Origin: a virus
Strand: one strand, 5' to 3'
Length of the DNA stretch: 64,000 bases
IMG/VR virus record: IMGVR_UViG_3300046003_007892
Span: 176,364 to 240,363 of that record
Shown: piece after piece, positions 9,341 to 64,000 of the stretch
Numbering within the stretch: the stretch's first letter is position 1
Layout: each line of letters opens with the position of its first letter
Notes under the pieces: generated by a model
What the model was told of the DNA's origin: nothing
What the model saw: the letters and a program-made list of their open reading frames with translations, nothing else
The model's database searches: none
Position numbers and translations under genes: made by a program

Positions 9341-9645
9341 CCGAACACCTGACCGCCTATCTGGGTCAGCACCCCCTCCCTATCCCCGACTTTGGCGAGT
9401 TCTTCGAGTTCGCCATGCCGGGCGATTACGCCATGCTGGTTCTTCCGTGCGGACTCCACTGCCTTATGTGCGATAGCGGTGGCGGCCACGCCTTGCTCGT
9501 TCATGCCATGGAGCGCGACGGGCAAGCTTGGAAAGATGTCGATTTCGACGAGGCAGACCCCGAGGCCAACATGCGCTGGGCCGACGACGAAGATCGCGCG
9601 GCCTTCGTCCTGACCTTGCTCGCCGCCACAAGGGGAACCGCATGA
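9328..9645 (+). CDS. Hypothetical acidic protein
   Basis: 105 residues, acidic C-terminal half. ATG lies inside the end of the upstream gene; ends in an ATGA overlap with the next. No family recognised. Confidence 0.65.
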   Translation: MELLTEHLTAYLGQHPLPIPDFGEFFEFAMPGDYAMLVLPCGLHCLMCDSGGGHALLVHAMERDGQAWKDVDFDEADPEANMRWADDEDRAAFVLTLLAATRGTA

Positions 9646-10043
9646 CCGAGGCGTCAATCGAATGCCCGACGTGTGGGCGTCGGTCCTGGCACCCCAAGGA
9701 CGTAGAGCACCAGTGGTGCGCCGCGTGTGAACGGTTCCACTGCCTAATGTTTTACCGGACGATGTTCCACATCGTCACCGTCAAGCCCCTGACGTTCATT
9801 TGCCGAATGATCGGAGATGGCCTCATTGACGGCGATCTTGAGGAAGATCGCATCTATACGCCCGCCAGTCATGGAATCCTTCCCCCGGATTCCAGACCCG
9901 GCGACATCTGCACCGCCTATATGAACATCAATGCCGTGCACCGCCACAAACGGTATGATGGGCTCATCCTCCACACCATTGAGCGACAATTCCGCGAGGG
10001 TGAACTACCGACGTGGGAAGACCTCATGGAGTCTGAAACATAA
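9642..10043 (+). CDS. Zinc-ribbon protein
   Basis: 133 residues. An N-terminal zinc ribbon is indicated by CPTCGRRSWH and WCAACERFHC (CxxC...CxxC spaced about 16 residues), near residues 9-31. The rest has no recognised domain. Last gene before a promoter at 10048. Confidence 0.65.
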   Translation: MTEASIECPTCGRRSWHPKDVEHQWCAACERFHCLMFYRTMFHIVTVKPLTFICRMIGDGLIDGDLEEDRIYTPASHGILPPDSRPGDICTAYMNINAVHRHKRYDGLILHTIERQFREGELPTWEDLMESET

Positions 10044-24824: not shown

Positions 24825-26504
<1,680 letters not shown>

Positions 26505-33844: not shown

Positions 33845-36800
33845 TTAGCTCCTCTGGACCGAGATTTCGATCACGCCGGTTTCGCCGTCGAAGTTCTCCA
33901 GAGCCTTGCCGATGATCGTGCCCAGCATGGGGTGCAGGGACGTTTCGGCGTGACCCGCGAGGTCCGAGGTGGTGAGGAGGTCGCCCTTGCGGACGGGTCC
34001 CTTGACCTTGCAGGGAACTCGGCCGACGAGAGCCACGTAGGGGTGAGTTTCATCACTGCCCGCGTCCGAGTTCATCATGTAGGCCGGAGCCGTTGAGATG
34101 ACGCCAGCCGAGCGGGTATCGTCGAGACGAAGGCACTGCGTGATTTCTTTGTTGCCGCCGAAGACCATGACGGTGCCGGGCTCATAGATGGCGTCGGCCT
34201 CGTAGCGTTCCGCGACGTCGGCGTATCGTGCCGAGGTGGCCGTACCGGTGAAAACACCAGCGGTGAGGTTGCCAGAGGAATCCCGCTGAGCAATCGTCGA
34301 GGCCGTCGCCGCAGTCGAAGGCGCGGCACCACGGAGAACGTCAGCATCAAGACCAGAACCCGAGCCATCGTTGCCACTGTGCCACAGAATCGAGGTTGAA
34401 CCGTTGGCACAGGCCAGAAGATCAAGTTGGATTCCCTTATTGTTGGTGCCATCATTGTGGTAGATGATGAGCGAGTTCTGACTTGTGGCGAACTGGATGT
34501 TGTGCGTCAGCGAAGTTCCCGATGAGGGCTTCTGCATCTGGAACGAACCAGAACTGAATAGGCCATTGTTGTTACTGACGGGAGTATATCCGAGACGGCT
34601 GGTGATGTCGGTGTAGTAGGTGGAATTGAAACCGTCGAGAAGGTCAGCGTCCAGACCAGACCCGGCGCCATCGGAAACTCCGAAGTTGAGGACGCCCGCG
34701 CCGACGCCACCATCCGTGTAGGTGGCGGTCATCTTCGTCTTGGTTCCGTTGGTCACCATGGTGCCGACGATGTCCTGGATGATTTCCTGGAGGCCTGTGT
34801 TGGTCGAGTCTAGACCGATGGTGATGGCTGCGGATTCCGTGCCGGAACCCGAGACCGTGACGCCGTTGGTGCCGGTTGCCGTGGCGAGGTAGTTGCCCGT
34901 GGTGTGGGTGCCGAGCGTGACCGCGTCTGCGGCCAGTGTGGTCGCGATGGAGCCGTTAGCCAGATTGGTGATCGTGGTCGTGCCGGTGACGGCACCCGTG
35001 AGGGTGACCGAGAAATCATTGACGTCCAGCGTGATCTTGGCCAGAGCGTCGTCATAGACGGCGGTGATGCCAGAATGGGTCGCTCGCGAGAACAAACCAG
35101 CCACGAGGTCTTCCACGCCTTCAACGAAAGTCGAAGCCGTCATGTCGAGACGAACAGTTGCCGCAGCACTTTCACCGGCACCGGTAACCACGATGCCGTT
35201 GGGGGTTGCGCCCGCAACGATGGTTGCCACGTAGTCACCTGCGGTATGGGTGCCGAGCGTGAGGGCGTTTGCGGCAGGAACCGTCGTGATCGTGATCGCC
35301 CCACCGTTGACGATGGTGGCAGTACCGGTGACCGCGCCAGCGAGAGTGACGGCTGTGTCGGGCGTTTGGAAGTTGAGCTTGCCGACGCCGACCGTGGCGT
35401 CATCAAAATACGTGACCGTGACGCCATTGGCAGTGTTGCCGGTGACCATGGTTCCGACGATGTCTTGAATGATCTCGCGGAACGCCGTGTTGGTGCTGTC
35501 GATGGTAATCGACGCGTCTGCGGATTCTACGCCCGCTCCGGTTACAACGAGACCGTTCGAACCCGTAAGGTTCATCAGATAGTTGCCCGTGGTGTGCGTG
35601 CCCAGAGTGACGCCGTTAGCTGCTAGGTTCGTGGCTATCACCGCGCTCGTGAGATTATTAACCCACGCAGTTCCGGTAACGGCTCCAATAAGAGTGATTT
35701 CGAACTCGTTAGCGTCCAGCGTGATCTTGGCCAGAGTGTCATCATAGACGGCGGTGATGCCGGAGTGGGTAGCGCGCGAGAACAGACCGGCGACGATGTC
35801 TTCGACGCCTTCGACAAAAGTAGCTGCGGCGAGGTCGAGGGCGACGGTCGGTGTCGAACCTTCGGCGGCCGACCCGACGACGACAATACCGTTCGCAACG
35901 GTCGCCGCCGTGACGGATGCGACGTAGTTGCCGATGGTGTTCGCGCCGAGCGTGATTGAGTTCGCCACGGTGGTGATCGAAATCGACGCACCGTTTGCGA
36001 TAGTGGCCGAGCCCGATACCGCACCAACGAGAGTGACGGTGGTGTTCGGAGTCTGGAAGTTGAGCTTACCGCCACCCAAACCGACATCATCGAAATAAGA
36101 AACCGTGATGCCGTTCTGCGTGTTACCGGTCACCATCGTGCCGACGATATCCTGGATGGCTTCCCTAAACGCCGTGTTGGTGTCGTCGAGGGAGACGGTG
36201 ATGGCCGCACTCTCGGAGCCCGAGCCAGTGACCGAGATAGCTCCCGACCCAGCGATAGTGGCGACGTAGTTACCCGCCGTGTGTGTGCCGAGAGTAACCG
36301 CGTTGGCGGCCAGCGTGGTCGCAATGGAAGTGTTTCCAAGATTGGTTACTGTGGCAGTACCGGTGATGGGACCGGTCAGGGTCATCGAGAAATCATTGAC
36401 GTCGAGCGTCATCTTTCCGAGCGTGTCGTCGTAGACCGCCGTGAGGCCGGAGTGGGTCGTCGTGAACAACGTCGCGGCGATATCCTGAATACCTTCGACG
36501 AAGGTTGCTGCACCCAAGTTGAGGCTGACGATGGCGTCGGCTCCAGTCGCGGTGCCTCCGGTGACCACGATACCGTTGGCGGTCGAGTCTGTGGCGACCG
36601 TGCGGACGTAGTTGCCGGTGACGGTTGAGTTGCCGAAGTCGATATTCGAGGTCGTGGTGATAGTCAGAGTCGAGCCCAGCGTCAGCACGCCATTACCGGA
36701 GACGGCTCCGTTCAATACGAGGTTCGTGGTCGGCACTGCGAAGTTTAGCTTACCCAGCCCACCCGCGACATCATCGAAATAAGAAACCGTGATGCCGGTC

Positions 36801-48373: not shown

Positions 48374-48771
48374 CACGCGGCCTCGTAGAGGTCGTCGGCC
48401 ACGATGGGGTGGCCAGACAGTTCGAGCAGACGGAGGAACCAGTCCATGAACACCGGCCCATGGTCGAGACTGTGTCCATCACGGCCAGATAGGTAGTGGG
48501 CGAGTTCGTGCAGGACCACGGCCTTGTTCGACCACTCGCGGATGTAAATCCGCAGCGTGTCGTGGGTGACCAGCCCGAGGACGTTGGCCGCCTCCGGGGA
48601 GGTCCGCAGGCAGCGAACCTTCGGCTGCTCATAGCCGAGGCGGTCGCACAGTTCGCGAATGACCACGCGCGCCGCGCCGATGTGGAGCGGCGACGGGAAG
48701 CGTCTGAACAAGACCGCTTCCTGCCATGCATACACGCGCTGGGACTCGGGGCACTCGACCGCGTAAGTCAC
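48373..48771 (-). CDS. SprT-like zinc metallopeptidase
   Basis: 132 residues from GTG 48771, overlapping the argS stop. HELAHYLSG near residue 88 is a full HExxH zinc site, and the following HSLDHGPVFMDWF offers the third ligand, as in SprT-like domains. Such domains cut DNA-protein crosslinks; its role here is unknown. Confidence 0.75.
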   Translation of the reverse strand: MTYAVECPESQRVYAWQEAVLFRRFPSPLHIGAARVVIRELCDRLGYEQPKVRCLRTSPEAANVLGLVTHDTLRIYIREWSNKAVVLHELAHYLSGRDGHSLDHGPVFMDWFLRLLELSGHPIVADDLYEAA

Positions 48772-50390
48772 ATCGCCTCCGGGACCTGGATGGTCAGGAG
48801 CCGCAGCGCGTAGTCGAGTTGGTGCTTAACCACCATGGTGAGATAGACCCGCGACGGGTCACCCAGCACGGTGGTGTGCGCGTAATAGGACGAGAACATC
48901 TGCGCGAGGTTGTAGGCATGATCGGCGATCATGTTCGGAGCCATCTTGTCACCGGCCGCCGCGATGATCTCGCGGAACCGATACAGGACCAGGGCGATGG
49001 CCTTTTCCTCCACCGTCGTGAGCTTCACGTCGAAGAACCGGAACCCATCGGGCATAGGGTCGGCCTTGCGCAGGATGGCGGCCATCCGAACGCTTTGATA
49101 GCAGAGATAGGGACCGGTCTTTCCCTCGAACGACAGGAAGCGGTCGAGGTCGAAGACATAGTTGGTCGAACGATGCGTCGAGAGATCGGCGAACTTGATG
49201 GCCGCCATCGCGATCAGTTCTGCCGTGATCGGGTCGGGGTTGCGCTCCAGGGCTTTCTCATAGGCGGCGTTGAGGAGATCGCCCAACTTAGGCGTTCCGC
49301 CGTCACGGGTCTTGAGAGGTTTGCCGTCCGGGCCGTTCACGGTGCCGAAGCCGACGTGGGTGAGTTTGACCTTGTCGGGCACGGTCTGGGCCACCTGCGC
49401 GACCTCGAAGAGTTGCTTGAAGTGCAGGGCCTGCCGTTGATCGACCACGTAGACGATCTCATCGGGGTCCCGAACCTTCCGGTCCTTGATGGTGGCGAGG
49501 TCGGTCGCAGCATAGAGGGCGGCGCCTTCGGAGTTGCGAAGGATGAGGGGCGTGTCGCCCGTGACCTTGACGATGATCGCACCATCGGACTCGACGGCGA
49601 TGCCCTGGTCGAGGAGTTCGTCGATCATGGGCTCCACCATGCCACCGACGCTGCTCTCGCCGTGCAGGGCGTCGAACGACACATCCAGCCGATTGATCTC
49701 CGGCAGGATGGCGGACTTGGTGAGTTCGACCAGCCGTTCCCAGATCGCGGTCGCGGCGGGTTGTTTGGTCTGAAGGCACATGACGGCTTTCTGCGCCGCC
49801 TTGCGGAAAGTCTCGTCGGCCTTCGCCCGTGCGCTGCACGCCGGATAAAGGGTTTCGAGATCGGCGAACGTCAGAGCGTCGAGGTCGATGCCGTCGATCT
49901 CGATGGCGGTGATCAGCAGGCCCATCTGGAGACCCCAGTCACCCCAGTGGATGTCGGAGATGACGTAGTTGTTCCGGGCCCGAAGGATGCGCTTGAGGCT
50001 CTCACCGATCAGCAGGGAGCGGAGGTGACCGACGTGCATCGGCTTGGCGATGTTGGGGCCGCCGTAGTCGAGAATGTAGGTCTTTCCGAACGTGGTCAGG
50101 CTCGGATTGGCCATCGCACGAATGACGTCCTCGACTGGAACCATGATGTTGATGTAGCCCGGCGCCACGGCCGAGAAGACGTAGTCGGACGGTGGAATCC
50201 CGGCGATGATTTTCTCCGCCAGTTCCAGCGGTTTCATCTTCATCTGTTTGGCGGCCCGAAGAGCCGCGACCGAAGTCAGGTCGGCGATCTCGGCCCGCTC
50301 GCTCCACTGGACATTCGCGGGGACGTCAACGCCAGCGGCTTGAAGGCCGCTGGCGAGCAGTTCGTTTACTTTGCTGAACAAATCCGACAT
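48768..50390 (-). CDS. argS: Arginyl-tRNA synthetase
   Basis: 540 residues, full length. PNIAKPMHVGHLRS near residue 112 is the HIGH motif of ArgRS; WGDWGLQMGLL and the C-terminal anticodon domain (QSVRMAAILRKA ... YAHTTVLGDP) follow. A KMSKS motif is degenerate (LKTRDGG), as is common in ArgRS. Charges tRNA-Arg. ATG 50390 lies 6 nt from a -10 box, so it is probably leaderless. Confidence 0.95.
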   Translation of the reverse strand: MSDLFSKVNELLASGLQAAGVDVPANVQWSERAEIADLTSVAALRAAKQMKMKPLELAEKIIAGIPPSDYVFSAVAPGYINIMVPVEDVIRAMANPSLTTFGKTYILDYGGPNIAKPMHVGHLRSLLIGESLKRILRARNNYVISDIHWGDWGLQMGLLITAIEIDGIDLDALTFADLETLYPACSARAKADETFRKAAQKAVMCLQTKQPAATAIWERLVELTKSAILPEINRLDVSFDALHGESSVGGMVEPMIDELLDQGIAVESDGAIIVKVTGDTPLILRNSEGAALYAATDLATIKDRKVRDPDEIVYVVDQRQALHFKQLFEVAQVAQTVPDKVKLTHVGFGTVNGPDGKPLKTRDGGTPKLGDLLNAAYEKALERNPDPITAELIAMAAIKFADLSTHRSTNYVFDLDRFLSFEGKTGPYLCYQSVRMAAILRKADPMPDGFRFFDVKLTTVEEKAIALVLYRFREIIAAAGDKMAPNMIADHAYNLAQMFSSYYAHTTVLGDPSRVYLTMVVKHQLDYALRLLTIQVPEAM

Positions 50391-50396
50391 CACATC

Positions 50397-50920: not shown

Positions 50921-50948
50921 AAGATACACCACGTCAGTTTCTTGTCAA
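50921..50948 (-). promoter_or_regulatory. Sigma70-like promoter
   Basis: TTGACA, 16-bp spacer, TATCTT on the minus strand, in the recurring CTTGACAAG context. Confidence 0.75.
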
Positions 50949-53236
50949 GTAAATGATTGCTCTTTTTCGCGCTTCTTCGATTTCGCACGAGCGGAGGACT
51001 TGGCGAACGTCATTCCGTCCACGAACTTGATGCGGTATTTGGAATGCAGATCGTTTTCCTCAATGAGGCGGTCCACAATCGCCATGGCCTCGAAGCTATA
51101 CCGGTAGCGGCTCACCAGCATGGAATTCAAGGTTCCGTCTTTCCACGCCCCGTAGTGGGCTTCAACGTCTTTGTCCCGAAGGAGCAAGAGACTGGAGCCA
51201 CGCGGAATTTTCAGGGACGGGGAGTTGACCAGCCATTCGGATTCATCGTTGAAAACTTTCGAGAGTCTCGCGAGCGCGTCCACCAGAGCGACCTGAATGT
51301 CTTCGACGCGCAGTTCGGTCTCGAAGTCCTGCGTGGACCAGTTGTTCCACTCTTTTGCCGCCGCCAGGAGGCTCTGGTAGAGGGCCTGGGAGAACTCCTG
51401 CGGGCTGTTCGGGCGGAAGCCCAAACGGTCGAACTCGTCTCCGGCCTTCCAGCCCAGATTGTTGTATTCGATGGCGTGGGCGACGTTGGGGTTGATCGAT
51501 TTCATGGTCGGCGTCATGTAACCGACGATGTTGTTGATCATGCCCGTGCGACCAAGCTTGGTCTCGGGGTCCTTCGCCCAGATGCGATAGATGGCGCGGA
51601 GGTTGTCGGCGCAGAGATAGTTGGGGTCATCGTAGGCGACCTTCTCGATCTTGTTAGCAGCGAACACAGCCTTGGGGTCCATGACGAGGCAGCAGTTGCC
51701 CGACGTATGGAAGAAGTTGAGCATGATCTGACGGCTGTCCGAGATGCCCTTGACGCCGTGGAGTTCCATGTTGGCGATGTCTTGAAGAGCCCGCATGCTT
51801 TGCTCGTGTTCGCGGTCGCTGGTCGGCAGGCGAGTGACGAGCCAGAACTTGGTCGGGTCGGTATTTTCGACCAAAGTCTTCTGACTTTCTTCGACCTCTT
51901 CTCGTCCGCGAATCATGCGCAGGAAAGAGGTGGTCTTCATCATTCTCTCAAGGCCCTGGCCCGAGGCCGTGAGGGCGTATCCTTCGAAGTTGATCAGCGA
52001 GCCGCCGCGCCAGTCGGTCCCTGCAATGTGGGGCTCGTGTGAGACGGGGAGGAAGATGTGGAAGCGGGTCGGGTAGTGATCATACGAAATCCCCAGTGCC
52101 TTCATGACGTTGAGGTGGATGTCCGCAGACGCTTGCCACACATAGGTGTTCTCGCCATCCGATACGCCTCGGAGATCGTCGCCTCGGTCCATCATGGCCA
52201 GCACTTCCGCCTTGCGGGGGTTCACGGTCACCTTGACGCCTTCGGCCCATTCGATGCGGCCTTCTGAGAGGTAGCCAGGACGCTTGCCTCCCAGCATGCA
52301 GATTTGCTCGCTCGCGCCTTCCTGGCGGGCTAGAGCGGTATAGAAGGCCGGGTTGGCGATGAAGGTGCCTTCGCCGCCGTAGATGGCCTCGGGGAGCATT
52401 GAGAGGGTCTCGTCGAGGAGGGTCGGACCCAGGAGTTCGGGAACCACCATACCGGAGCATCGGGCGAGATCGGCCGTCTCCGGGGTGACGTAGCCCCAGA
52501 GGGGGAGTTGCTGACTGGCGGTCTCGAACCCACGGAGGACCATCTCGGGCTTACCAACGGCGGCCATAACCTTGAACATCCCGCTGCCCTGCATGCGGGT
52601 CGCGAGGTATCCGGTCTTGTCGCCGTAGAAAGTCCAGTTGCGGGCTCGGCTCTCGAACTTGGCAGCCGTCCAGTCACCGAACACCCGATGGGCTTCCTTG
52701 ACCCCGATGGCGTTCGGGCCCGACGACGCACCTTCGAGGATGGCGTTCGTGCGCAGCTTTTTCTCTTTGGTCTTGTGCTTGCCCGTGGAGGGTTCGGCGA
52801 AAATCTCTGGCCCGAGCAGGATTTTGCCCCGGTAGGGTTCGATGCTTTCGATGTCGAGCTTGGAGCCGTTGTAGGTGATCGTGACGTGCGAGTTGTAGTC
52901 ATCAAACTTCCACGCGGCGCCGTGATCGAGAAAATCCTGCCAACGGGAGTTGAGGTGATCGTTCTGGATGGTGAGCACAATCGCGCCGCCATCGAACTCA
53001 ACGATCTCGCGCTTGTCTGCGTTCTTGACGCTAACTTCTTCTTTGCCCTTGCCGCATTCAGACCAGACTACTGGGTCCGCCGAATGGCAAACAGTGACGT
53101 GGAGGTTGGACATGACAGTCCTCATACCCTGCTCTTCTGCCCACTCTTCAATATCGGCAATGTTCAACACTTTCCTCTTTACATAAAGGGGTCGTGCTTT
53201 TGCTAGTTTCGAGGAGGCAAGTTCATCTAGTCGCAT
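50945..53236 (-). CDS. Large candidate head-packaged protein with 2H phosphoesterase-like domain
   Basis: 763 residues from ATG 53236 (a longer in-frame ORF would cross the late promoter). The start MRLDELAS gives an LDE site. Residues ~40-125 contain two H-x-T motifs, LHVTVCHS and SHVTITYN, the signature of the 2H phosphoesterase superfamily (cyclic phosphate hydrolysis; includes anti-CBASS Acb1-type enzymes). Around residue 345, VNPRKAEVLAM ... LRGVSDGENTYVWQAS is the NP/RG/YVW domain of the other head candidates. The remaining ~400 residues are unassigned. Basic C-terminal tail. Confidence 0.7.
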   Translation of the reverse strand: MRLDELASSKLAKARPLYVKRKVLNIADIEEWAEEQGMRTVMSNLHVTVCHSADPVVWSECGKGKEEVSVKNADKREIVEFDGGAIVLTIQNDHLNSRWQDFLDHGAAWKFDDYNSHVTITYNGSKLDIESIEPYRGKILLGPEIFAEPSTGKHKTKEKKLRTNAILEGASSGPNAIGVKEAHRVFGDWTAAKFESRARNWTFYGDKTGYLATRMQGSGMFKVMAAVGKPEMVLRGFETASQQLPLWGYVTPETADLARCSGMVVPELLGPTLLDETLSMLPEAIYGGEGTFIANPAFYTALARQEGASEQICMLGGKRPGYLSEGRIEWAEGVKVTVNPRKAEVLAMMDRGDDLRGVSDGENTYVWQASADIHLNVMKALGISYDHYPTRFHIFLPVSHEPHIAGTDWRGGSLINFEGYALTASGQGLERMMKTTSFLRMIRGREEVEESQKTLVENTDPTKFWLVTRLPTSDREHEQSMRALQDIANMELHGVKGISDSRQIMLNFFHTSGNCCLVMDPKAVFAANKIEKVAYDDPNYLCADNLRAIYRIWAKDPETKLGRTGMINNIVGYMTPTMKSINPNVAHAIEYNNLGWKAGDEFDRLGFRPNSPQEFSQALYQSLLAAAKEWNNWSTQDFETELRVEDIQVALVDALARLSKVFNDESEWLVNSPSLKIPRGSSLLLLRDKDVEAHYGAWKDGTLNSMLVSRYRYSFEAMAIVDRLIEENDLHSKYRIKFVDGMTFAKSSARAKSKKREKEQSFT

Positions 53237-53261
53237 TGGTTCCACTATACAGGGGTCGGGG

Positions 53262-53267
53262 TATTTA
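53262..53267 (-). promoter_or_regulatory. T4-like late promoter (ATAAATA)
   Basis: CATAAATA on the minus strand, 25 nt before ATG 53236. Confidence 0.7.
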
Positions 53268-53330
53268 TGACCAATTACCTGTGGGATATTTTGGTTGACC
53301 AAAGCCCGCCATTGCTGCATATGCGGGCCA

Positions 53331-53648
53331 ATGCGCCCCATATTTCTCGACGACATCCGCGTGCCGCGATCATCTCCGCCATCGGGCTGGTGGGTGGTCC
53401 TCCGCGATGCTCAGATGACGAAGGACTACATCCTCGAACACGGATGCCCGGACCACATCTCGTTCGACCATGACCTCGGAGACCCTAAGGCCGAGACCGG
53501 CTATGACGTGGCGAAATGGCTCGTCGAGATGGACCTCGATAAGCCCGGCTTCCTCCCAGAGAATTTCACGTTCGCCGTCCACAGCGCGAACCCCGTGGGC
53601 GCCAAGAACATCCGCGAATATCTGACCGCCTACCTGGGTGTCCGATGA
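53331..53648 (+). CDS. Cyclic-phosphate processing receiver-domain protein
   Basis: 105 residues. FLDDIRVPRS at residues 5-14, SFDHDLGD near residue 44 and AVHSANPVGA near residue 82 match the stand-alone receiver-like cPPR domain predicted to act on cyclic phosphates in RNA or nucleotide repair. Divergent from the 2H phosphoesterase gene. Start ATG 53331 chosen because homologues open just before FLDD. Confidence 0.8.
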   Translation: MRPIFLDDIRVPRSSPPSGWWVVLRDAQMTKDYILEHGCPDHISFDHDLGDPKAETGYDVAKWLVEMDLDKPGFLPENFTFAVHSANPVGAKNIREYLTAYLGVR

Positions 53649-54340: not shown

Positions 54341-54679
54341 ATGTTCTGGAAAAAGAAAAAGGTCACCGAGATCACTGCACCGGTTCCCGATGAACCCCGC
54401 GTCCGCACCGTCGTGTTCGATGCCGACACGTTGGAGCGCGCCTATCGCGATGTGAAGCATGTCGGGTTCTCGCGCTCAGTGATGAACTCCGACAACGTCC
54501 TGGCTCTCCTCATGCTGGCCAGAATGGGGCTCGAAACAGTGCCGGGGAAAGTCTTCACGCTGTCGATCACGACCGGCGCGGCCAGTCTGGATTCTCTGGC
54601 CGACGTGGCTGGGGTGCCCCAGATGCGTCCGGCAACTCCTTCAGAGGTGTTCGAAGAATTGCACCCGCCGCTCAGTTAG
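54341..54679 (+). CDS. Hypothetical protein
   Basis: 112 residues; basic start (MFWKKKKVTE), then a helical domain. Converges with the next gene, sharing 4 bp. Confidence 0.6.
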   Translation: MFWKKKKVTEITAPVPDEPRVRTVVFDADTLERAYRDVKHVGFSRSVMNSDNVLALLMLARMGLETVPGKVFTLSITTGAASLDSLADVAGVPQMRPATPSEVFEELHPPLS

Positions 54680-55257
54680 GGGAACCGCTGCACCCAGCGT
54701 TCACCAGCCGCGATCACCGCCATCGTTTCGGCGTCGTTTGGAAGGGCTTCACGAACGCATTCGCAGTAGCGGGCGAAACCTGCTCGGTCGATCATCAGGC
54801 CCGTGATGTAGCGGTCCAGGTTGTTCACGTCGCCGAAGACGCATTCTTCGAGTTCGTCATCCCCGTCGCCAAAATCCACCATTTCGAGACCATCGCTGTG
54901 GAAGCATACGGAAAAGAACTCGTAGTCTCGGTGTAGGGCTTGTCGGTTGAACTCCATGACTACGCCTTGGCCACCAGCAATCATTTCTGCTTTGTGGGAT
55001 ACGAGTTCGTGATCTTCCTCGAACTTGGTGTAATCGAAATCGCTATACTGGGATAGCTGGCCCCGCCGAGCGAGATCAATTGCGCTCCCGCAGAAACGCT
55101 TCGCGACCTCGGGGTCGAGGGTGAAGCTAGCTTGGTCTTCGCCGCCGTAGGCGCCAATCATGTTGTGATGTGCAATGAAGCAGAACCCCGTCATGGACGT
55201 CCCGTGATAGAGATGCGCCGGACGCTGTGATTCCGTCAGATTCATCCACTCGCGCAT
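54676..55257 (-). CDS. ADP-ribosyltransferase-fold-like protein
   Basis: 193 residues. LYHGTSMTGF near residue 20, ASFTLDPEVAKRF near residue 46 and a late acidic LEECVFGDVNNL follow the order H/R-S/T-E of ADP-ribosyltransferase folds. T4 carries such enzymes to modify host proteins. The key residues are only inferred by eye; it may be an inactive relative. Confidence 0.5.
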   Translation of the reverse strand: MREWMNLTESQRPAHLYHGTSMTGFCFIAHHNMIGAYGGEDQASFTLDPEVAKRFCGSAIDLARRGQLSQYSDFDYTKFEEDHELVSHKAEMIAGGQGVVMEFNRQALHRDYEFFSVCFHSDGLEMVDFGDGDDELEECVFGDVNNLDRYITGLMIDRAGFARYCECVREALPNDAETMAVIAAGERWVQRFP

Positions 55258-55258
55258 G

Positions 55259-55582
55259 TTAGCCCACAGTCTTCCTGATCGCGCGGTTCTCAGCCATGGC
55301 GATGGCCTCGGCCTTGCGGAGCAACAGGAGATCGAGGCCAAGCGACTTGAACTCTTCCTTGATGTCGCCCTGGAGGGTCAACCAGTCGTCGCCAACGCGC
55401 TTCATGATGGCGGTTCCGGCCGGGCGCCGGTTGTAGAAGACCGTGTAGGCGATGTTGTCTCCAACGCGCTCTTCTTCGATATTCACGAGCTTCATATCCG
55501 CAGAGACGTCTTCGTCAATCTGCTGGACGGGGAGTTTGAGCGTGGGGTCGATGCGCTTGTAGTGTTCGAGGAAGCTGGGCAT
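55259..55582 (-). CDS. Late hypothetical protein
   Basis: 107 residues, MPSFLEHYKRIDP at the start (FLE, a weak cleavage fit). ATG 55582 is 4 nt after a TAAATA. Mixed strand-helix, no family recognised. Confidence 0.65.
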   Translation of the reverse strand: MPSFLEHYKRIDPTLKLPVQQIDEDVSADMKLVNIEEERVGDNIAYTVFYNRRPAGTAIMKRVGDDWLTLQGDIKEEFKSLGLDLLLLRKAEAIAMAENRAIRKTVG

Positions 55583-55592: not shown

Positions 55593-55868
55593 TGCCAGAC
55601 GAAGCTTCCATTCGAAAAAACACGCCTGTGCACGGACGAGATCGCTTGCTTGGGTGAAGTGCCAGGGTCGCCCTATTCCTCGCATGACTGACCAGCCGGG
55701 ACCGAATACGGCGTCGGACGTGGTGCCGTGGTGAACCCAAACTCCGATCTCGTCCATTACCGCTCGTCCATCAATGATATAGCGATGGATGGCACGGCTA
55801 GGCCGCGTGATCTTCACCCACTCACGCAGGATTTCGAGGTTCTCCGGCGTGAGTGGGTGTTCGGTCAC
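55590..55868 (-). CDS. Hypothetical protein
   Basis: 92 residues from GTG 55868, overlapping the CCA-enzyme stop (GTGA). Trp/His-rich; IGVWVHHGTT near residue 40 might be a small fold of its own. No family recognised. Confidence 0.6.
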   Translation of the reverse strand: MTEHPLTPENLEILREWVKITRPSRAIHRYIIDGRAVMDEIGVWVHHGTTSDAVFGPGWSVMRGIGRPWHFTQASDLVRAQACFFEWKLRLA

Positions 55869-57100
55869 AGGCCCTGTTTGGCCAGCAGGCCGTTCAGGAA
55901 GTCGTTGGTGCGGTTCATGTCGAACCAGACCTTGACCCATTCTTCTTCGGTCGCGCGCAGGATGTCGCCCATGGCCTTGCCGGGCTTCATGCCACGGTCG
56001 ATCAGCATCGCCCCCGAGATCGGGAACACGCGGGGAGCCAGACGGCCCACCTTGTTGATCTGATCGGCCAGCGTATCGAAATCGAACGGCAGGCCACAGG
56101 CCCAGGTCAGGGCCATGCGGTCACGAACGGCCACGACGCCATCGCGGTAGATGTGCTGCTCGATGCTGTCGAACCACGCGTCTCCGCCCATCTCGGTGAA
56201 CGGTCCCTGCTTGATCGCGTTGGTGACCCGCTGACGCGAGGCGTTCGAGAACCGCAGGCGAGCCATGACGTCCCCGCAGGCCTGCATATCCCAGTTGAAC
56301 AGGGAGGCGAAGCGGGGGGCCCAGTCGGTCGTGGCTTGACAGACGCGGGTGAACACACGGGCGTCAAACGCGACCGGGAAGATGGTCGAGTAGACCTCGG
56401 TGCGCTGCATGGCCTCCAGAGCGGGGACGGGGTTGCCCGCGCCCAGCAGCTTGGAGATTTCCTTCTCGATGCGTTCGCCGGACAGGCTCGCGATTCCGTC
56501 CCGTTGCGCCTTGCAGGCGGCCAGGGCTTCGGCGGAGATGTCCGCACCCAGAACCGCCATGAAGCGGAACAGGCGCAGGCTGCGCAGGTGATCTTCGCGC
56601 AGACGCTGCTCGGCGTCGCCGACGAACTGGATACGACGGGCCTTGGCGTCTTCAATGCCGCCGCGCGTCGGGTCATAGACGGTTCCGTCCGGGCCCAGAT
56701 ACAGGGCGTTGAAGCGGAAGTCGCGACGTTGCGCGTCTTCGGCCCAGTCCTTCGTAAAGGCGATCACGGCGCGGCGGCCATCGGTCTCGACGTCGCGGCG
56801 CAGCGTCGTGAACTCGTAGGCGGTCTTGTTGATGATGACCGAGACCGTGCCGTGCTCGATGCCCGTGGGGATGACATCGAAACCTTCCAAGCGGAAGATG
56901 TCCGAGATCAGCGTGGGTTCCAGAGTGGTGGCGATGTCGATGTCGCCGCACTGGCGGCCCATGATGGAGTCACGCACGCACCCGCCGACGAAGCGGTAGG
57001 AATCCGCAGGCGCATGCACATCCATGATCGCGATGATCGATTGGATGGCCGGGGTCGAGAACCAATCCGGGCGCAGGGTCAGGGTCTTCGGCGTGCTCAT
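55865..57100 (-). CDS. cca: CCA-adding enzyme / poly(A) polymerase-family nucleotidyltransferase
   Basis: 411 residues. FVGGCVRDSIMGRQCGDIDIATT near residues 37-59 holds the G-G-x-V-R-D and the metal-binding DxD; RRDFRFNALY and EDHLRSLRLFRFMA complete the class II tRNA nucleotidyltransferase pattern, in the long alphaproteobacterial form. It adds or repairs the CCA end of tRNAs. ATG 57100 lies 6 nt from a -10 box; probably leaderless. Confidence 0.92.
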   Translation of the reverse strand: MSTPKTLTLRPDWFSTPAIQSIIAIMDVHAPADSYRFVGGCVRDSIMGRQCGDIDIATTLEPTLISDIFRLEGFDVIPTGIEHGTVSVIINKTAYEFTTLRRDVETDGRRAVIAFTKDWAEDAQRRDFRFNALYLGPDGTVYDPTRGGIEDAKARRIQFVGDAEQRLREDHLRSLRLFRFMAVLGADISAEALAACKAQRDGIASLSGERIEKEISKLLGAGNPVPALEAMQRTEVYSTIFPVAFDARVFTRVCQATTDWAPRFASLFNWDMQACGDVMARLRFSNASRQRVTNAIKQGPFTEMGGDAWFDSIEQHIYRDGVVAVRDRMALTWACGLPFDFDTLADQINKVGRLAPRVFPISGAMLIDRGMKPGKAMGDILRATEEEWVKVWFDMNRTNDFLNGLLAKQGL

Positions 57101-58008: not shown

Positions 58009-58392
58009 TTAGTTGTCGTAGGGGTCGATGCCGTTCCACAGGTGATTGCCATAGGAATCGCCTGCGTTGTCCTGACCGTCTTCGCGATGAGTGATCGGGA
58101 TGCCCATACGGTCGGTTCCAGAATAACCGGAATGCCCATCGTCGCTATAGGCGGAGCCGACTGCACCCAGGCCGGGGTTCGAGATACCGGCGTTTTCCAG
58201 AGCCGCAACGGCGACGTTGTAAAGACCCAGAGCGGCGGCGGCATAGAGGAACAGCTTGGCGAGTTTGTTTTTCCCGCCGCTTTCTGCGAGAATTTTGTCC
58301 ATCGCCTCTGCGAGGAGGTCTTTCGACTTCGACTTGGATTTTGACTCCACGAGAGGCGTTTTGGCCTCGATGATGTCGATCAAATTTCTCAT
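58009..58392 (-). CDS. Candidate internal head protein
   Basis: 127 residues. MRNLIDIIEA is a very good capsid-targeting match; LLAEAMDKILAE offers further LxE sites after a Lys/Ser-rich linker. One hydrophobic stretch (LFLYAAAALGLYNVAVAA) could insert into a membrane, so a role during DNA ejection is possible. Shine-Dalgarno AAAGGA. Confidence 0.7.
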   Translation of the reverse strand: MRNLIDIIEAKTPLVESKSKSKSKDLLAEAMDKILAESGGKNKLAKLFLYAAAALGLYNVAVAALENAGISNPGLGAVGSAYSDDGHSGYSGTDRMGIPITHREDGQDNAGDSYGNHLWNGIDPYDN

Positions 58393-58417
58393 AACAGTGA
58401 TCCTTTAGGTTTTGATT

Positions 58418-58423
58418 TATTTA
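58418..58423 (-). promoter_or_regulatory. T4-like late promoter (ATAAATA)
   Basis: GATAAATA on the minus strand, 25 nt before ATG 58392. Just beyond it, on the other strand, begins the structured RNA. Confidence 0.72.
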
Positions 58424-58431
58424 TCTTTTCG

Positions 58432-58923
58432 CCAACGAAACGACGACGACAATCTCGTCAACCAAAAGAAAAATCGAAATGACGCATTTTTCGTATTGCG
58501 TTCGTTGGGGCCGATGCGTAGAAAGAGATTGTTCCGGCGGCGGACGGCTTCGGCCCCCTCCCCAACGAGGTCATCGAAAGGCTTCCTCGTTGCACGCGAA
58601 CCTCGCTACTGACCGGCTTCGGCCGCCATCAGATCACGGTGAGGCCAGCACGGAGCGCGACCTACTGTGCTTCGGCATTACTGGTCGTATTCAGAACGGT
58701 CGCTCCGTTCTGGGTTCCGGTATACTCGCGCCGTAAGTGGTGAGTGGGCCAAGACAGGGCTCGACTGGTTTGAGACCAGCTTCTGGGGTTGAGAACACCC
58801 TGACCTGATGCGATAACCTCGCGAAGGTGAACAGACTCCGGCCTCTTTCTAGGGCCGCTGACATCGCCCAGCAAGGCATGCCCAGTTAAGGGCCGGAAGA
58901 CCTGAACCATCTTCCGGCCCTTA
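58432..58923 (+). ncRNA. Large structured RNA, copy 1
   Basis: About 490 nt without a credible ORF. 5' domain: CCAACGAA (58432-58439) pairs with TTCGTTGG (58501-58508), enclosing an ACGCA/TGCGT hairpin; then a block around 58518-58560 (key bases GTAGAAAGAGATTG, and a GGC-TTCG-GCC tetraloop) nearly identical to copy 2. Middle: 8-bp stems at 58563-58592 and 58692-58712. 3' domain: TGGGC (58745-58749) can pair with GCCCA (58880-58884) around CTGG-TTTGAGA-CCAG and a GGCC-9 nt-GGCC hairpin shared with copy 2; it ends in a 14-bp terminator stem. Promoter not identified. Confidence 0.8.
58887..58923 (+). terminator. Terminal hairpin of RNA copy 1
   Basis: Perfect 14-bp stem opening TAAGGGCC and closing GGCCCTTA, 9-nt loop, followed by GATTTATTTG; only moderately U-rich. 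Confidence 0.7.
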
Positions 58924-58966
58924 GATTTATTTGGGGTCTGGTTTTGCTGTCTGGTATAACGGCGGC

Positions 58967-59176
58967 ATGATCACCAAGACCCTAGACGGCACACCGCTCA
59001 GCGAAGAAGCCGCACAGAAACTCGCGATGTTCAAGGCCATGGCGCAGGCCCGTCAGGACGCCATGGAGGAAGCCGAGCAGAATCGCTCGCGGCTCGACCG
59101 GAAAGGCGTGCGGGTCTTCACTGAAGCCGAGAAAGCAGCCTTCCTGGCGTCGCGCCCGGACCTCAAAGCCTCATAG
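58967..59176 (+). CDS. Small helical protein between the RNA copies
   Basis: 69 residues from ATG 58967. A TATAAC box lies exactly 6 nt upstream, so leaderless; -35 weak. Helical, charged (ARQDAMEEAEQNRSRLDRK). It overlaps the converging gene by 14 bp. Longer in-frame starts would run into the promoter. Confidence 0.6.
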   Translation: MITKTLDGTPLSEEAAQKLAMFKAMAQARQDAMEEAEQNRSRLDRKGVRVFTEAEKAAFLASRPDLKAS

Positions 59177-59486
59177 TAAAATATTCCAAACAGCATTCCG
59201 TCCAACCATCGGCGTCCGGGATGTCTACCTGCATCACGCCGACGAGGTCGTAGATCGATATCGTGATATCAAACTTTGACTGGTCAGCGGGGAACGCCAC
59301 GCCTCGTAGAAATACGTTTGGATATGTTCGCCCACCAACGTGGTAAACGATTCGTGTCGGCTCGACTTTCCGATCTAGGGCGTAATCCATGGCAACCGCC
59401 CACAGGGGTCGGTCATCGACAGGGACTCGCAACGCCTCGACGCGGCAACTGGGGGCGTGGCGGAGTTCAGGCGTCATCGTTTTCAT
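59163..59486 (-). CDS. Hypothetical protein
   Basis: 107 residues from ATG 59486. A TATAAATG box (59496-59503 region, minus strand), close to the T4 late consensus, precedes it. Tail WTECCLEYFTM recalls the W/TF-type small proteins. Function unknown. Confidence 0.6.
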   Translation of the reverse strand: MKTMTPELRHAPSCRVEALRVPVDDRPLWAVAMDYALDRKVEPTRIVYHVGGRTYPNVFLRGVAFPADQSKFDITISIYDLVGVMQVDIPDADGWTECCLEYFTMRL

Positions 59487-59509
59487 CTCTAGGCTGGGCT
59501 GACATTTAT

Positions 59510-60002
59510 ACCCCAAATCGTCAACCCAAACAAAAATCGAAATCGCTGCATTTTCTTGTTGCGGCCCTCGGAGGAGATGGGTAGAAAGAGATTGTTCCGG
59601 CAGCGGACGGCTTCGGCCCCCGCCGCCACGGAGAAACCCGAAAGGGCCAACACGAAGAAGGAAGGGGTTCGCCCCAACCCGAAGGAACTAAAGGACAGCG
59701 GATAACACCCGATGGCCTCAAGGACTGGAATACCGAAGTGACGAGAACGGCCCTCGAAACCGTTCGCAAGACCCTGGTCTCAAGTCACGTAGGATACGGT
59801 CTAATCCGAGGGCTCACATCGTAAAGTGGGCAGGCTCAGCTAGGGCCGATATACCGGTTTGAACCCCGGCTAGCTAGGGCCAGAAGCCCCTACCGTCTCA
59901 CGACGGAAATCACCTTCTAGGCCTCTTGCTTAGGCCTTATGTGACGCGAACGCGTCGCCCACATATTAAGGGCCCGTGGACATGATTAGCCACGGGCCCT
60001 TA
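59510..60002 (+). ncRNA. Large structured RNA, copy 2
   Basis: About 490 nt, no credible ORF. It shares with copy 1 the 5' block (AAAAATCGAAAT; a CGC-GCA/TGT-GCG hairpin with compensating changes; then 59579-59620 with GTAGAAAGAGATTG, CGGACGG and the TTCG tetraloop), a GTGGGC (59826-59831) to GCCCAC (59957-59962) closing helix, a CCGG-TTTGAACC-CCGG hairpin, a GGCC-9 nt-GGCC hairpin, and a 13-bp terminal stem. The middle is unrelated. A D-arm-like GGCTCAGCTAGGGCC lies near 59833. Placed, like copy 1, back-to-back with a minus-strand late gene. Confidence 0.8.
59967..60002 (+). terminator. Terminal hairpin of RNA copy 2
   Basis: Perfect 13-bp stem opening TAAGGGCCC and closing GGGCCCTTA with a 10-nt loop; no clear U-tract after it. 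Confidence 0.65.
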
Positions 60003-60015
60003 GCTTGTCTGGGCC

Positions 60016-60021
60016 TAAATA
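60016..60021 (+). promoter_or_regulatory. T4-like late promoter (TAAATA)
   Basis: CTAAATA exactly 4 nt before ATG 60026. Confidence 0.75.
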
Positions 60022-60025
60022 TGAG

Positions 60026-61531
60026 ATGCGTCGGTTCATCGATCTCTCTGAGAAATTCCACCACGGCTTCGTCCCGACCTACAATCGCGGTAAGCCCTGC
60101 GAGGTGTTCAAGAACCCCGACCGGTCTGAGGTCCGCAAGCTGAAGGCCGATATGGATGAGGTTCGCGCCTATCTGGTTGGCGACGACATCTTTATGTGGA
60201 ACACCTATCAGTCCCTGCACCGCACGGTGCACGACGAACTCAAGCTTCCTGCTGACGCTCTCCCGATCATCATCTACGGCGACGTGGACGACGAGGCCTC
60301 GGTTGTGGTCACCGACGCGAGTAGGTCCACGGTCTGGCACCATAATGCCGAGACGCGTGGAGCCATCATGGCCCATCCCTACTTTGCCCGCTGCGAAGAC
60401 GTCGAAGTCTCTTACTATGACGAAGCCATCGTCGGACAATGGCATGACCCCAAAGGCGAGAACGAGGATTTCGTTGCTCATTTCATGGGTGATGAATACG
60501 GCGACGACAGTATCGACCATGGTGCCGAAGACCCCGACGACGATGGCTTCACCGACGAAGAGCGGGCCCTGCACGAGGGCATGGCCCTGAACCTCTTTGA
60601 ACTCTCGGGCCCGTCTCAAGAAGCAGCTAATCAGAAATTCGCCGCCTATGCGAAGAGCCAACGAAACGGCAAGCCCGAACTCTTCGGCACGTCACAGCGG
60701 GCCAACCCAGGCCTCTTTCACGGCACCGGCTATTTCACCTGGATGTGTGAGCACGTCGGTGATCTCTCCCACCGCATCGCCGACAACGCCGTCAACTCCA
60801 CCTGCGGGTTCGAGACCATGAACGAGAAAGTCGGGAAGGCTCTCGACAAGCTCCGCTCAGGCTCCTTCGGCCGCACGTTCGCGAGGACGGTAGTGGAAAA
60901 TGTTCGAAACAATTATCATTACGGAGTTGAGGTCGGTCGCACGACCGGCTCCTTCGAGGAGTTCGAGACCGAGTGGCGCGACGCCTCCAAGCTCTATGGC
61001 GCCGCACACGCTGCCCTCCAGCCCTTCAACGATGCCCAGATGCATTGTCGGGATGCGGCGGTCGCGCTCGGGAACCATGACTGGCTGAAATGCCTGAAGC
61101 ATCTCGAAGTCCTCGCGGCCCACCTCGTAGATCGCGAATCCTGGCAGGCCTACGCTGGGGCCTTGGCCTTCACTCAAAATGAGAGCTTTCGCGGACGTCT
61201 GCCATTCGACCCCGAAGACGCAGTGACGAACCCGAGCGCGAAACGTCTGATGGCCATGGTGAAGAATGCCACCCATCAGGATTTGCGCGGCCTCTACGAC
61301 GGAACCAACCTGTATTTCTGGGACGCCAGCCTTGGCGTTCACTCCCACGTCGCCCCGGCGATTGGTCTCGAATACGATTATCTCAAGAGGCTCAACGTCG
61401 ATATCGTTTACGGCGGCGTGGAGATCACATGGGACGAGGGTGTGCCCAAGGAGGCCATCGCGAAACGATACGGTGACCTGGGTCGATTCAAGACCGCCCA
61501 GACCTTCGAGTTCGAGGGTGCCCTGTCATGA
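60026..61531 (+). CDS. Candidate internal head protein, three-domain fusion
   Basis: 501 residues. MRRFIDLSE gives an LSE site. Domain A (~30-75): KNPDRSEVRKL ... VRAYLVGDDIFMWN. Middle (~215-385): FAAYAKSQRN, EHVGDLSHRIA, VVENVRNNYHYG, homologous to the separate late protein at 43019-43678. Domain C (~405-460): NPSAKRLMAMV ... LRGLYDGTNLYFWDAS, a second copy of domain A. So two NP/RG/YVW domains flank a helical module. ATG 60026 is set by promoter spacing, not the in-frame codon at 60005. Confidence 0.72.
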   Translation: MRRFIDLSEKFHHGFVPTYNRGKPCEVFKNPDRSEVRKLKADMDEVRAYLVGDDIFMWNTYQSLHRTVHDELKLPADALPIIIYGDVDDEASVVVTDASRSTVWHHNAETRGAIMAHPYFARCEDVEVSYYDEAIVGQWHDPKGENEDFVAHFMGDEYGDDSIDHGAEDPDDDGFTDEERALHEGMALNLFELSGPSQEAANQKFAAYAKSQRNGKPELFGTSQRANPGLFHGTGYFTWMCEHVGDLSHRIADNAVNSTCGFETMNEKVGKALDKLRSGSFGRTFARTVVENVRNNYHYGVEVGRTTGSFEEFETEWRDASKLYGAAHAALQPFNDAQMHCRDAAVALGNHDWLKCLKHLEVLAAHLVDRESWQAYAGALAFTQNESFRGRLPFDPEDAVTNPSAKRLMAMVKNATHQDLRGLYDGTNLYFWDASLGVHSHVAPAIGLEYDYLKRLNVDIVYGGVEITWDEGVPKEAIAKRYGDLGRFKTAQTFEFEGALS

Positions 61532-61944
61532 GGCTTGCAGAGATCATGGAGCGGGCTGGCCCTCAGACCTACATTCGTTTCGGGGATATCCCGGCTAGCG
61601 GCCGATCTGGCATCGGTGCCTCGACGAACCAGTTCACGCATGCCCGGAGACGCGGTGACGAAGAACTAGGGGTGTCCGTCTACCCGGCTCGCTTCGACCG
61701 AGAGCTTCAGAAATGGATTCTGGACTGCAACAACTACGCGACGCTGGGCGAACTCGTCTCCCGTGAGCGACCCGCCTTCGTCGTGACTGGCGATCACGTC
61801 ATCGACCCCGATTATGAAGCCCCCGCTTACGGACAGGACAGCGAGCCCCTGTTGACCAATGTCCGGGTTCTCCGACCGGTCACCTACCAGGAAATCATCG
61901 CACCCGGCTGGGGCGAGACCTCAACCATAGACGAAATGGTCTAG
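61528..61944 (+). CDS. Candidate internal head protein, YIRFG domain
   Basis: 138 residues, ATGA overlap with the previous gene. MRLAEIMERAG gives an IME site. YIRFGDIPASGRSGIG, LGVSVYPARFD, RPAFVVTGD and DSEPLLTNVRVLRPVT match the C-terminal half of 62654-63478. Domain of unknown function seen in other large phages, from memory. Confidence 0.68.
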   Translation: MRLAEIMERAGPQTYIRFGDIPASGRSGIGASTNQFTHARRRGDEELGVSVYPARFDRELQKWILDCNNYATLGELVSRERPAFVVTGDHVIDPDYEAPAYGQDSEPLLTNVRVLRPVTYQEIIAPGWGETSTIDEMV

Positions 61945-63485: not shown

Positions 63486-64000
63486 ATGCGAACTATCGAA
63501 CTTTTCGAAGCTCCCCTTGGACGGGTCCGTATCACCCGGACTCTCTCCGAAGACACGGCAGCGGCGCCGCCGCAGAAATGGCCCGCGCGTCTGGACGATT
63601 CGCGCATGATCGCCCGCTACATGGACAGCATCAGCAGCGACTACGTCGATGTCGATATGGTGGAGGAATACCTCCAAGGCGCACACGCCGATCTCAAGCT
63701 CGTCCCCATCGACGAACTCTCCGAGGGAAACCAGGACGCCAACATCCGAGACCCTCGCAAGGAAGCAAAATATTCGAAGCTCGATATGGCTACCATGCCG
63801 CCCCTGGTCGTACAGGACGGCGTCATCCTCGACGGTAATCACCGCTACCGTATAGCCAAAGCGAAGGGCGTCACCGCGCTGTGGTGCTATGTCTGCGACG
63901 ACTCCCTCACTGAGGTCGAGATTGGCGGCTACATCGAGAAGGGTGACTTTCCCGACAACCTCGACGACGACGATCTCTCCAGCGATCAGCTAGACCTGTC
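63486..64000 (+). CDS. Candidate internal head protein with ParB-like domain (partial)
   Basis: 171 residues visible, open at the right edge. MRTIELFEA is a clean capsid-targeting match. From residue ~55 a ParB/sulfiredoxin-like domain appears: LKLVPIDELSEG, MPPLVVQDGVILDGNHRYRI AKAKG (the LDGNHR motif, near residue 118). ParB-like domains bind or hydrolyse nucleotides (CTPase or nuclease). A packaged ParB-like enzyme could act on host DNA or nucleotides at injection; that is inference. Confidence 0.7.
   Translation, partial: MRTIELFEAPLGRVRITRTLSEDTAAAPPQKWPARLDDSRMIARYMDSISSDYVDVDMVEEYLQGAHADLKLVPIDELSEGNQDANIRDPRKEAKYSKLDMATMPPLVVQDGVILDGNHRYRIAKAKGVTALWCYVCDDSLTEVEIGGYIEKGDFPDNLDDDDLSSDQLDL

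Follow-up and report, generated by a model that had tools for sequence, protein, structure and literature searches.

ROOL and GOLLD are ornate RNAs, sometimes abundant, for which to our knowledge no function has been established. They form a homo-octameric cage and a 14-mer, respectively, and in ROOL the pairing of a strand with a loop was proved to be intermolecular; GOLLD members are often longer than 800 nt and conserve their 3' region (PMC12286853). In the lytic Vibrio phage ICP1 an abundant orphan transcript of about 800 nt was proven by RNA-seq (PMC7567579). The initial annotation of the DNA analyzed here, the final 64 kb (the window) of a 240,363-bp virus record (G000; 58% GC), described twin structured RNAs of about 490 nt from an unrecognised family, and compared them with GOLLD and ROOL. 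Our analysis indicates that the family is probably real and new, and more modest than it had been drawn: the window would contain a pair of paralogs, each giving rise to a structured RNA of ~430-450 nt that is noncoding and stands alone.

For the baseplate wedge protein encoded in the record (1112 aa), the nearest relative is that of Sinorhizobium phage Phosso (43%), followed by Agrobacterium phage Atu_ph07 (40%), and RaK2-like phages are more remote relatives. Judged by protein similarity, the carrier phage belongs in the Atu_ph07/Phosso (Rak2-like) jumbo clade. The largest relatives of the record in IMG/VR have 290-610 kb, so the 240-kb record is probably about half a genome; both this record and the one with the third member described below are probably fragments. 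For the whole record 24 tRNA genes were predicted, and ARAGORN found neither a tRNA nor a tmRNA gene in the window. One tRNA (G000:139655-139730, plus strand) has a CUA anticodon; it is called Pyl by ARAGORN and is possibly an amber suppressor. A group I intron match at G000:40906-41155 (minus strand; L125:1906-2155) reached 50.1 bits, with an Rfam gathering score of 50, and adjoins a predicted tRNA-Asn of unusual length. No more than 10 kb from the RNAs lie the genes for an arginyl-tRNA synthetase (48768-50393, minus strand), a CCA-adding enzyme (55865-57100, minus strand) and an 803-aa protein (50945-53356, minus strand) in which Pfam detects an Acb1 (anti-CBASS) domain (residues 56-188, E 1e-29). 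The resemblance of the latter to small-phage genes with a portal protein annotation is confined to the Acb1 stretch. A GroEL gene is located at 24825-26453 (minus strand).

The codon-usage gene call leaves gaps at 58393-58930 and 59517-60004 which span both RNA stretches, and no protein gene fits into them, in agreement with the claim of two non-coding stretches. The reported gene setting, with diverging minus-strand genes and plus-strand ORFs behind the copies, was also recovered:

58009-58392, minus strand: flanking gene of 127 aa, diverging from copy 1 (ORF call)
58931-59176, plus strand: small ORF separating the two RNAs (codon-usage call)
59163-59489, minus strand: flanking gene of 108 aa, diverging from copy 2 (ORF call)
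60005-61531, plus strand: gene after copy 2, 508 aa from TTG or 502 aa from ATG at 60023 (codon-usage call)

Searches of PHROG and Pfam gave no match for either flanking gene and no family match for the small ORF, and Pfam gave none for the 502-aa protein (60023-61531). Partial or weak relatives of the 508-aa gene are present in three clade records (G007, G002 and G008). T4-late-promoter-like boxes, GATAAATA (about 58415-58425, minus strand) and TATAAATG (about 59502-59512, minus strand), are located upstream of the diverging minus-strand genes. In a pattern scan the N-terminus of the 127-aa gene product (MRNLIDIIEA) resembled the T4 capsid-targeting leader. About 35 predicted proteins of the record open with a leader of this type (M[RK]-x-[LIV]xE, as in T4 internal proteins), among them those encoded at 58009-58392 (minus strand), 60023-61531, 61528-61944 and 63486-63998 (all plus strand) of the window, which suggests that many proteins are packaged in the head and injected. 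In several of these leader-bearing proteins a (Y/F)HGT motif resembling that of ADP-ribosyltransferases was seen by eye, namely in the products of 60023-61531 and 54676-55341 of the window and of G000:163710-164294, 168267-168641 and 35321-35884; the same phage encodes NAMPT-like (G000:48916-50280) and NMN-adenylyltransferase-like (G000:47753-48904) proteins.

When one copy was searched by blastn in the entire 240-kb record, the sole match was the other copy (82.5% over 113 nt, E=1.4e-25), with a core in which 40/41 positions are identical (58519-58559 versus 59582-59622). The near-identical 5' block with a TTCG-capped stem noted at the outset is therefore present, and the similarity opens upstream of it, at TCGTCAACC (58455 and 59518). 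The shared part consists of TCGTCAACC, an AT-rich spacer, a T[AG]TTGCG box and GTAGAAAGAGATTGTTCCGGC[GA]GCGGACGGCTTCGGCCCCC. The features of the two copies are:

58455-58500, plus strand: copy 1 upstream element, TCGTCAACC, 30 nt AT-rich, TATTGCG, at conserved spacing
58494-58923, plus strand: copy 1 probable RNA body, ~430 nt, 5' end approximate, with 5' domain and terminal hairpin
58494-58610, plus strand: copy 1 conserved 5' domain, 111.2 bits with covariance model R1, which was trained on it
58839-58857, plus strand: copy 1 CGGCC-loop-GGCCG hairpin (GGCC-9 nt-GGCC at 58840-58856), from the sequence
58887-58923, plus strand: copy 1 terminal hairpin TAAGGGCCGGAAG...CTTCCGGCCCTTA, terminator-like, a 14-bp perfect stem, then GATTTATTT
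59518-59563, plus strand: copy 2 upstream element, TCGTCAACC, 30 nt, TGTTGCG, conserved in all three members
59557-60002, plus strand: copy 2 probable RNA body, ~446 nt, 5' end approximate, with 5' domain and terminal hairpin
59557-59689, plus strand: copy 2 conserved 5' domain, 112.8 bits with R1, which was trained on it
59919-59937, plus strand: copy 2 AGGCC-9 nt-GGCCU hairpin (GGCC-9 nt-GGCC at 59920-59936), from the sequence
59967-60002, plus strand: copy 2 terminal hairpin TAAGGGCCCGTGG...CCACGGGCCCTTA, 13-bp stem

Measured between the T[AG]TTGCG box and the hairpin, the RNA is large as described at first, but with ~430-450 nt shorter than the ~490 nt given. The 5' domain contains an invariant stretch of 12 nt, AGAAAGAGATTG (58520-58531 in copy 1, 59583-59594 in copy 2), which is identical in all three members in the midst of differing flanks. 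In copy 1 it is followed by a UUCG hairpin (inner stem 58546-58555) and a GNRA hairpin (ACGAGG...CGAAAG...CCTCGT, 58565-58590). In copy 2 GUUCC (59594-59598) pairs with GGAAC (59684-59688) and encloses the UUCG and GNRA hairpins; this domain has an additional GGGG-UUCG-CCCC hairpin, and its GNRA hairpin kept the inner CCC-GAAA-GGG with an outer stem of just 2 bp.

When 2.9 million viral contigs were scanned for the 16-mer AGAAAGAGATTGTTCC, 32 matched; 31 of these showed no extension of the match, and one was real. This third member resides in a related giant phage, IMG/VR 3300050120_000210 (contig L260, record G025; 149,124 bp, 55.6% GC), which has about 20 proteins in common with our record at 25-57% identity and whose SbcC-like protein is nearest to Phosso and Atu_ph07:

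L260 9384 to about 9860 (G025 from 105515): third member RNA

It is identical to the core at 35/41 positions, and its elements follow in the order found in the two copies: GTCAACC, 30 nt, TATTGCG, TAGAAAGAGATTGTTCCGG, a UUCG hairpin (the TTCG-capped stem is common to all three), a GNRA hairpin and a divergent middle, with a GGUC/GACC hairpin and then the TTAAGGGCC...GGCCCT stem in the 3' part, written TTAAGGGCCGGAAG...CTTCCGGCCCT at the end. Its GNRA hairpin reads GAAACC-GAAA-GGCCAA within a GCACA/UGUGU stem, and GUUCC/GGAAC closes the 5' domain as in copy 2. The motif GAAA-CC(C)-GNAA-GG(G)-CCAA occurs three times, in the 5' domain of copy 2 (about 59635-59653) and in both the 5' and the 3' domain of the third member (L260 about 9463-9478 and about 9750-9766), and resembles a reusable internal-loop module.

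In 3/3 copies exactly 30 nt separate GTCAACC from the T[AG]TTGCG box, and in the two carrier records the pattern GTCAACC-N26..34-TTGCG matched these sites, one chance site in a coding region and nothing else. The third RNA stands alone, with a plus-strand gene and, about 360 nt away, a tRNA-Val upstream and minus-strand genes downstream; the upstream element is therefore part of the RNA unit and not of the diverging minus-strand genes. It is a probable promoter region or 5' leader. Since a sigma-70 promoter was sought without success and the terminal hairpins have no clean U-tract, transcription is only putative. A plus-strand ORF begins close behind each copy (58931; 60005 or 60023), as expected if the RNA were a long cis-acting leader or attenuator of the downstream gene with the terminal hairpin as a regulated terminator. 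However, the next genes of the third member are on the minus strand, so that the RNA is no leader there, and the ORFs downstream of copy 1 and copy 2 show no mutual resemblance; we regard a leader as very improbable. In the explanation that we prefer, a stand-alone RNA, the upstream element would drive transcription and the hairpin would end it, and each RNA would thus be its own transcription unit.

The pairing of the 5' domain was analyzed with a model of 19 pairs. In the three 5' domains 92% of the cells were paired, compared with 20-54% when the partners were slid by 1-3 columns. Three pairs of the 5' GNRA hairpin are changed on both sides, with GC/AU/GC in copy 1 versus AU/CG/AU in the third member; the compensating changes claimed for this hairpin are thus clear between these two members, but copy 2 has an outer stem of just 2 bp. 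In the terminal stem 95% of the cells were paired, and 4/14 pairs differ on both sides between copy 1 and copy 2. In covariation statistics with the three members, 15-36 of 500 shuffles reached the observed score or paired fraction, and pair counts from three sequences are suggestive, not decisive. Fold z-scores ranged from -3.1 to -3.9 with the terminal hairpin and were -1.1, -1.7 and -1.7 without it, so the striking values are largely due to this hairpin. After its removal the sense strands of copy 2 and the third member (z -1.7) folded less well than their antisense strands (-2.9 and -3.3). The UUCG and GNRA loops together with the T-richer tail on the plus strand make this strand the likely RNA.

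The conserved block contains some unpaired sequence, which would also suit an element acting at the DNA level (an origin, a packaging site or a repeat); an undetected peptide gene belongs to the same alternative. Against it stand the strand-specific tetraloops, the double-changed pairs, the fixed upstream spacing and the terminator-like ends. No ORF is conserved across the three members, and in the third member a TAA stop at TTAGAAAG interrupts the antisense frame common to copies 1 and 2. We consider this alternative distinctly improbable. With a third member, double-changed pairs, no conserved ORF and no credible Rfam match, the assignment to an unrecognised family of structured RNA withstood the analysis.

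The middle and the 3' domain were compared by a purpose-written, LocARNA-like structural alignment scored against dinucleotide shuffles. For any pair of members the middle (z -0.7 to -0.2) and the 3' domain (z 0 to 1.2) did not exceed the shuffles. A common 3' plan drawn by hand, in which the GGCC hairpin and a CGCG-type hairpin come immediately after an outer stem with an inner hairpin, suits all three members by eye, but found no statistical support and was not retained. The 3' domain was misaligned by MAFFT, and the covariance model R1 covers the 5' domain only. The region between the 5' block and the terminal hairpin has diverged between the copies, as had been noticed. The TGGGC/GCCCA closure and the T-loop-like hairpin (GGTTTGA) are present in copies 1 and 2 as described, but absent from the third member. 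The GGCC-9 nt-GGCC hairpins occur in both copies, and at the homologous place the third member has GGUC-8 nt-GACC (CAGGUC...GACCUG), a compensatory change. The long terminal stems, TAAGGGCC...GGCCCTTA, were likewise borne out: they are the sole AAGGGCC...GGCCCTT hairpins in the whole record, where the 14-bp perfect stem of copy 1 is the longest and the 13 bp of copy 2 are equalled by one at record position 41249. Within these comparisons the 5' hairpins, the terminal stem and a single 3' hairpin would make up the fold that can be regarded as demonstrated.

A new RNA of the giant ornate type, with an ordered fold, self-assembly to a dimer or cage via loop-loop contacts and the middle as a disordered linker, would agree with a large, phage-borne RNA that has a divergent middle between conserved parts; a tRNA-Val lies near the third member, and the window has no tRNA. 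In copy 1, the invariant UAGAAAGAG of the 5' domain and CUCUUUCUA in the GGCC-hairpin loop are perfect complements (9 bp, -11.9 kcal/mol), a pairing of the ROOL type (PMC12286853); in a duplex scan 3/200 shuffled probes were equally good. But the same pairing is interrupted by an A.G mismatch in copy 2 and only partly possible in the third member; in neither of these does the best pairing beat shuffled probes, and a pseudoknot of AGAAAGAG with the GGCC-hairpin loop was persuasive for copy 1 alone. The missing match to ROOL or any Rfam family, the shared 3' folding that stays within chance and the conservation of the 5' end, in place of the 3' region as in GOLLD, also speak against an ornate RNA, which we judge unlikely. 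Quite improbable is the more specific version of a self-assembling or RNP scaffold, in which the purine strand of one molecule would pair with the CUCUUUCU hairpin loop of another, and in which copy 1 and copy 2 might form mixed assemblies, made in infection beside the genes for capsid-targeted proteins.

Comparison of both copies and the third member with 4227 Rfam families at permissive thresholds (E<=5-10) gave nothing credible, GOLLD, tmRNA and Y RNA included, and ARAGORN called no tmRNA. The ROOL covariance model (RF03087) had no match at E<=10 in our record and 13 relatives; no control genome was matched either. The lack of a match to ROOL or GOLLD thus held in these scans, and of the resemblance to them size and host remain, while the elaborate 3' domain is missing from the third member and did not exceed chance in the structural alignment. 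The search of Rfam and large phages that had been proposed gave no Rfam family and no homologues beyond the third member. Among 55 records (our own included) R1 gave 111-129 bits for the three members, which are its training set, and 18 bits for the next best; the matches in G008, G044, G054, G007 and others (<=18 bits) were judged to be chance. In seven named jumbo phages R1 yielded only chance matches in coding genes. Those in Phosso lie within coding genes, and an AT-rich one in Vibrio phage 2.275.O (26 bits, E 1.5e-4) is located inside the coding gene NVP2275O_028. A 14-mer scan of viral contigs gave at least 120 matches, and none of the matches listed was extended. Two gapped or longer viral patterns returned the third member and chance matches, and a pattern scan of bacterial genome contigs returned 11 matches, all by chance. 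No match was obtained by blastn against GenBank phages, no relatives were reached in viral contigs via the 508-aa and 803-aa neighbour proteins, and a NAMPT alignment scan found the two known carrier records only. Within the collections searched the family consists of three members in two phages.

Ro60/TROVE RNA-binding proteins are encoded by G006, G007, G009, G010, G011 and Phosso (PV764938.1:290343-291407). A review of jumbo phages links TROVE proteins with tRNA-like RNA partners (PMC7824862). The RNA might accordingly be a Y-RNA-like partner of such a protein, for which a TROVE domain scored above the cut-off in 6/15 clade records, including Atu_ph07 and Phosso. Yet no TROVE gene is found in the 240 kb of G000 or the 149 kb of G025, both probably fragments, the TROVE-bearing phages have no credible R1 match and no Y RNA of Rfam matched, which leaves this partnership extremely improbable. 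The Ro60-like proteins of relatives and the capsid-targeting-like leaders nearby are leads only with respect to function.

The constant ends and divergent middles of two copies in one genome are what a trans-acting base-pairing regulator would display, its constant 5' domain serving stability or protein binding and its variable middle pairing with copy-specific targets. However, our own record contains no convincing antisense match (best E 0.1, self-complementary hairpins aside) and few complements to the invariant strand, and we rate such a regulator as rather unlikely. Our leading explanation, held tentatively, is that the RNA belongs to a family absent from Rfam, occurring in few jumbo phages related to Atu_ph07 and Phosso, and acts in trans as a scaffold. 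By sequence, its constant unit consists of the upstream element at fixed spacing and the 5' domain, then a middle that has diverged, and at the end a strong hairpin. The 5' domain, with at least two hairpins beside the invariant purine-rich strand AGAAAGAGAUUG (12 nt), may be a recognition module in which the invariant single strand is offered to a phage or host protein or to a conserved RNA partner. The middle may tolerate change as a spacer or a member-specific arm, and the two diverged copies suggest dosage or specialisation.

Another large phage RNA family from another clade, with a compact constant domain, provides an independent system for asking about function. The domain of ~117 nt with its invariant strand is small, testable and usable as bait, and the finding indicates that the intergenic regions of jumbo phages contain RNA families which Rfam lacks. 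Among known RNAs, tmRNA is similar in size and is encoded by a relative, the 457-kb phage G002. That tmRNA (alpha-proteobacterial/permuted; L245:8176-8509, plus strand, 134-138 bits) lies beside the relative of the 508-aa gene. The ICP1 transcript is likewise an unclassified large phage RNA without an ORF, but it is larger and was proven by RNA-seq. With GOLLD the new RNA shares that it is a large phage ncRNA with one half conserved and the other divergent; GOLLD conserves the 3' region, whereas the new RNA of ~430-450 nt conserves the 5' domain and the terminal hairpin. ROOL, which is often near tRNAs, is also a large ncRNA of phages and prophages with a variable linker and a function that is not known (PMC12286853), but its model has 574 positions compared with ~430-450 nt, and no counterpart of the conserved 5' domain was detected in it. 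Not a member of either family by covariance-model test, the RNA is like ROOL and GOLLD in size class, phage setting and unassigned function.
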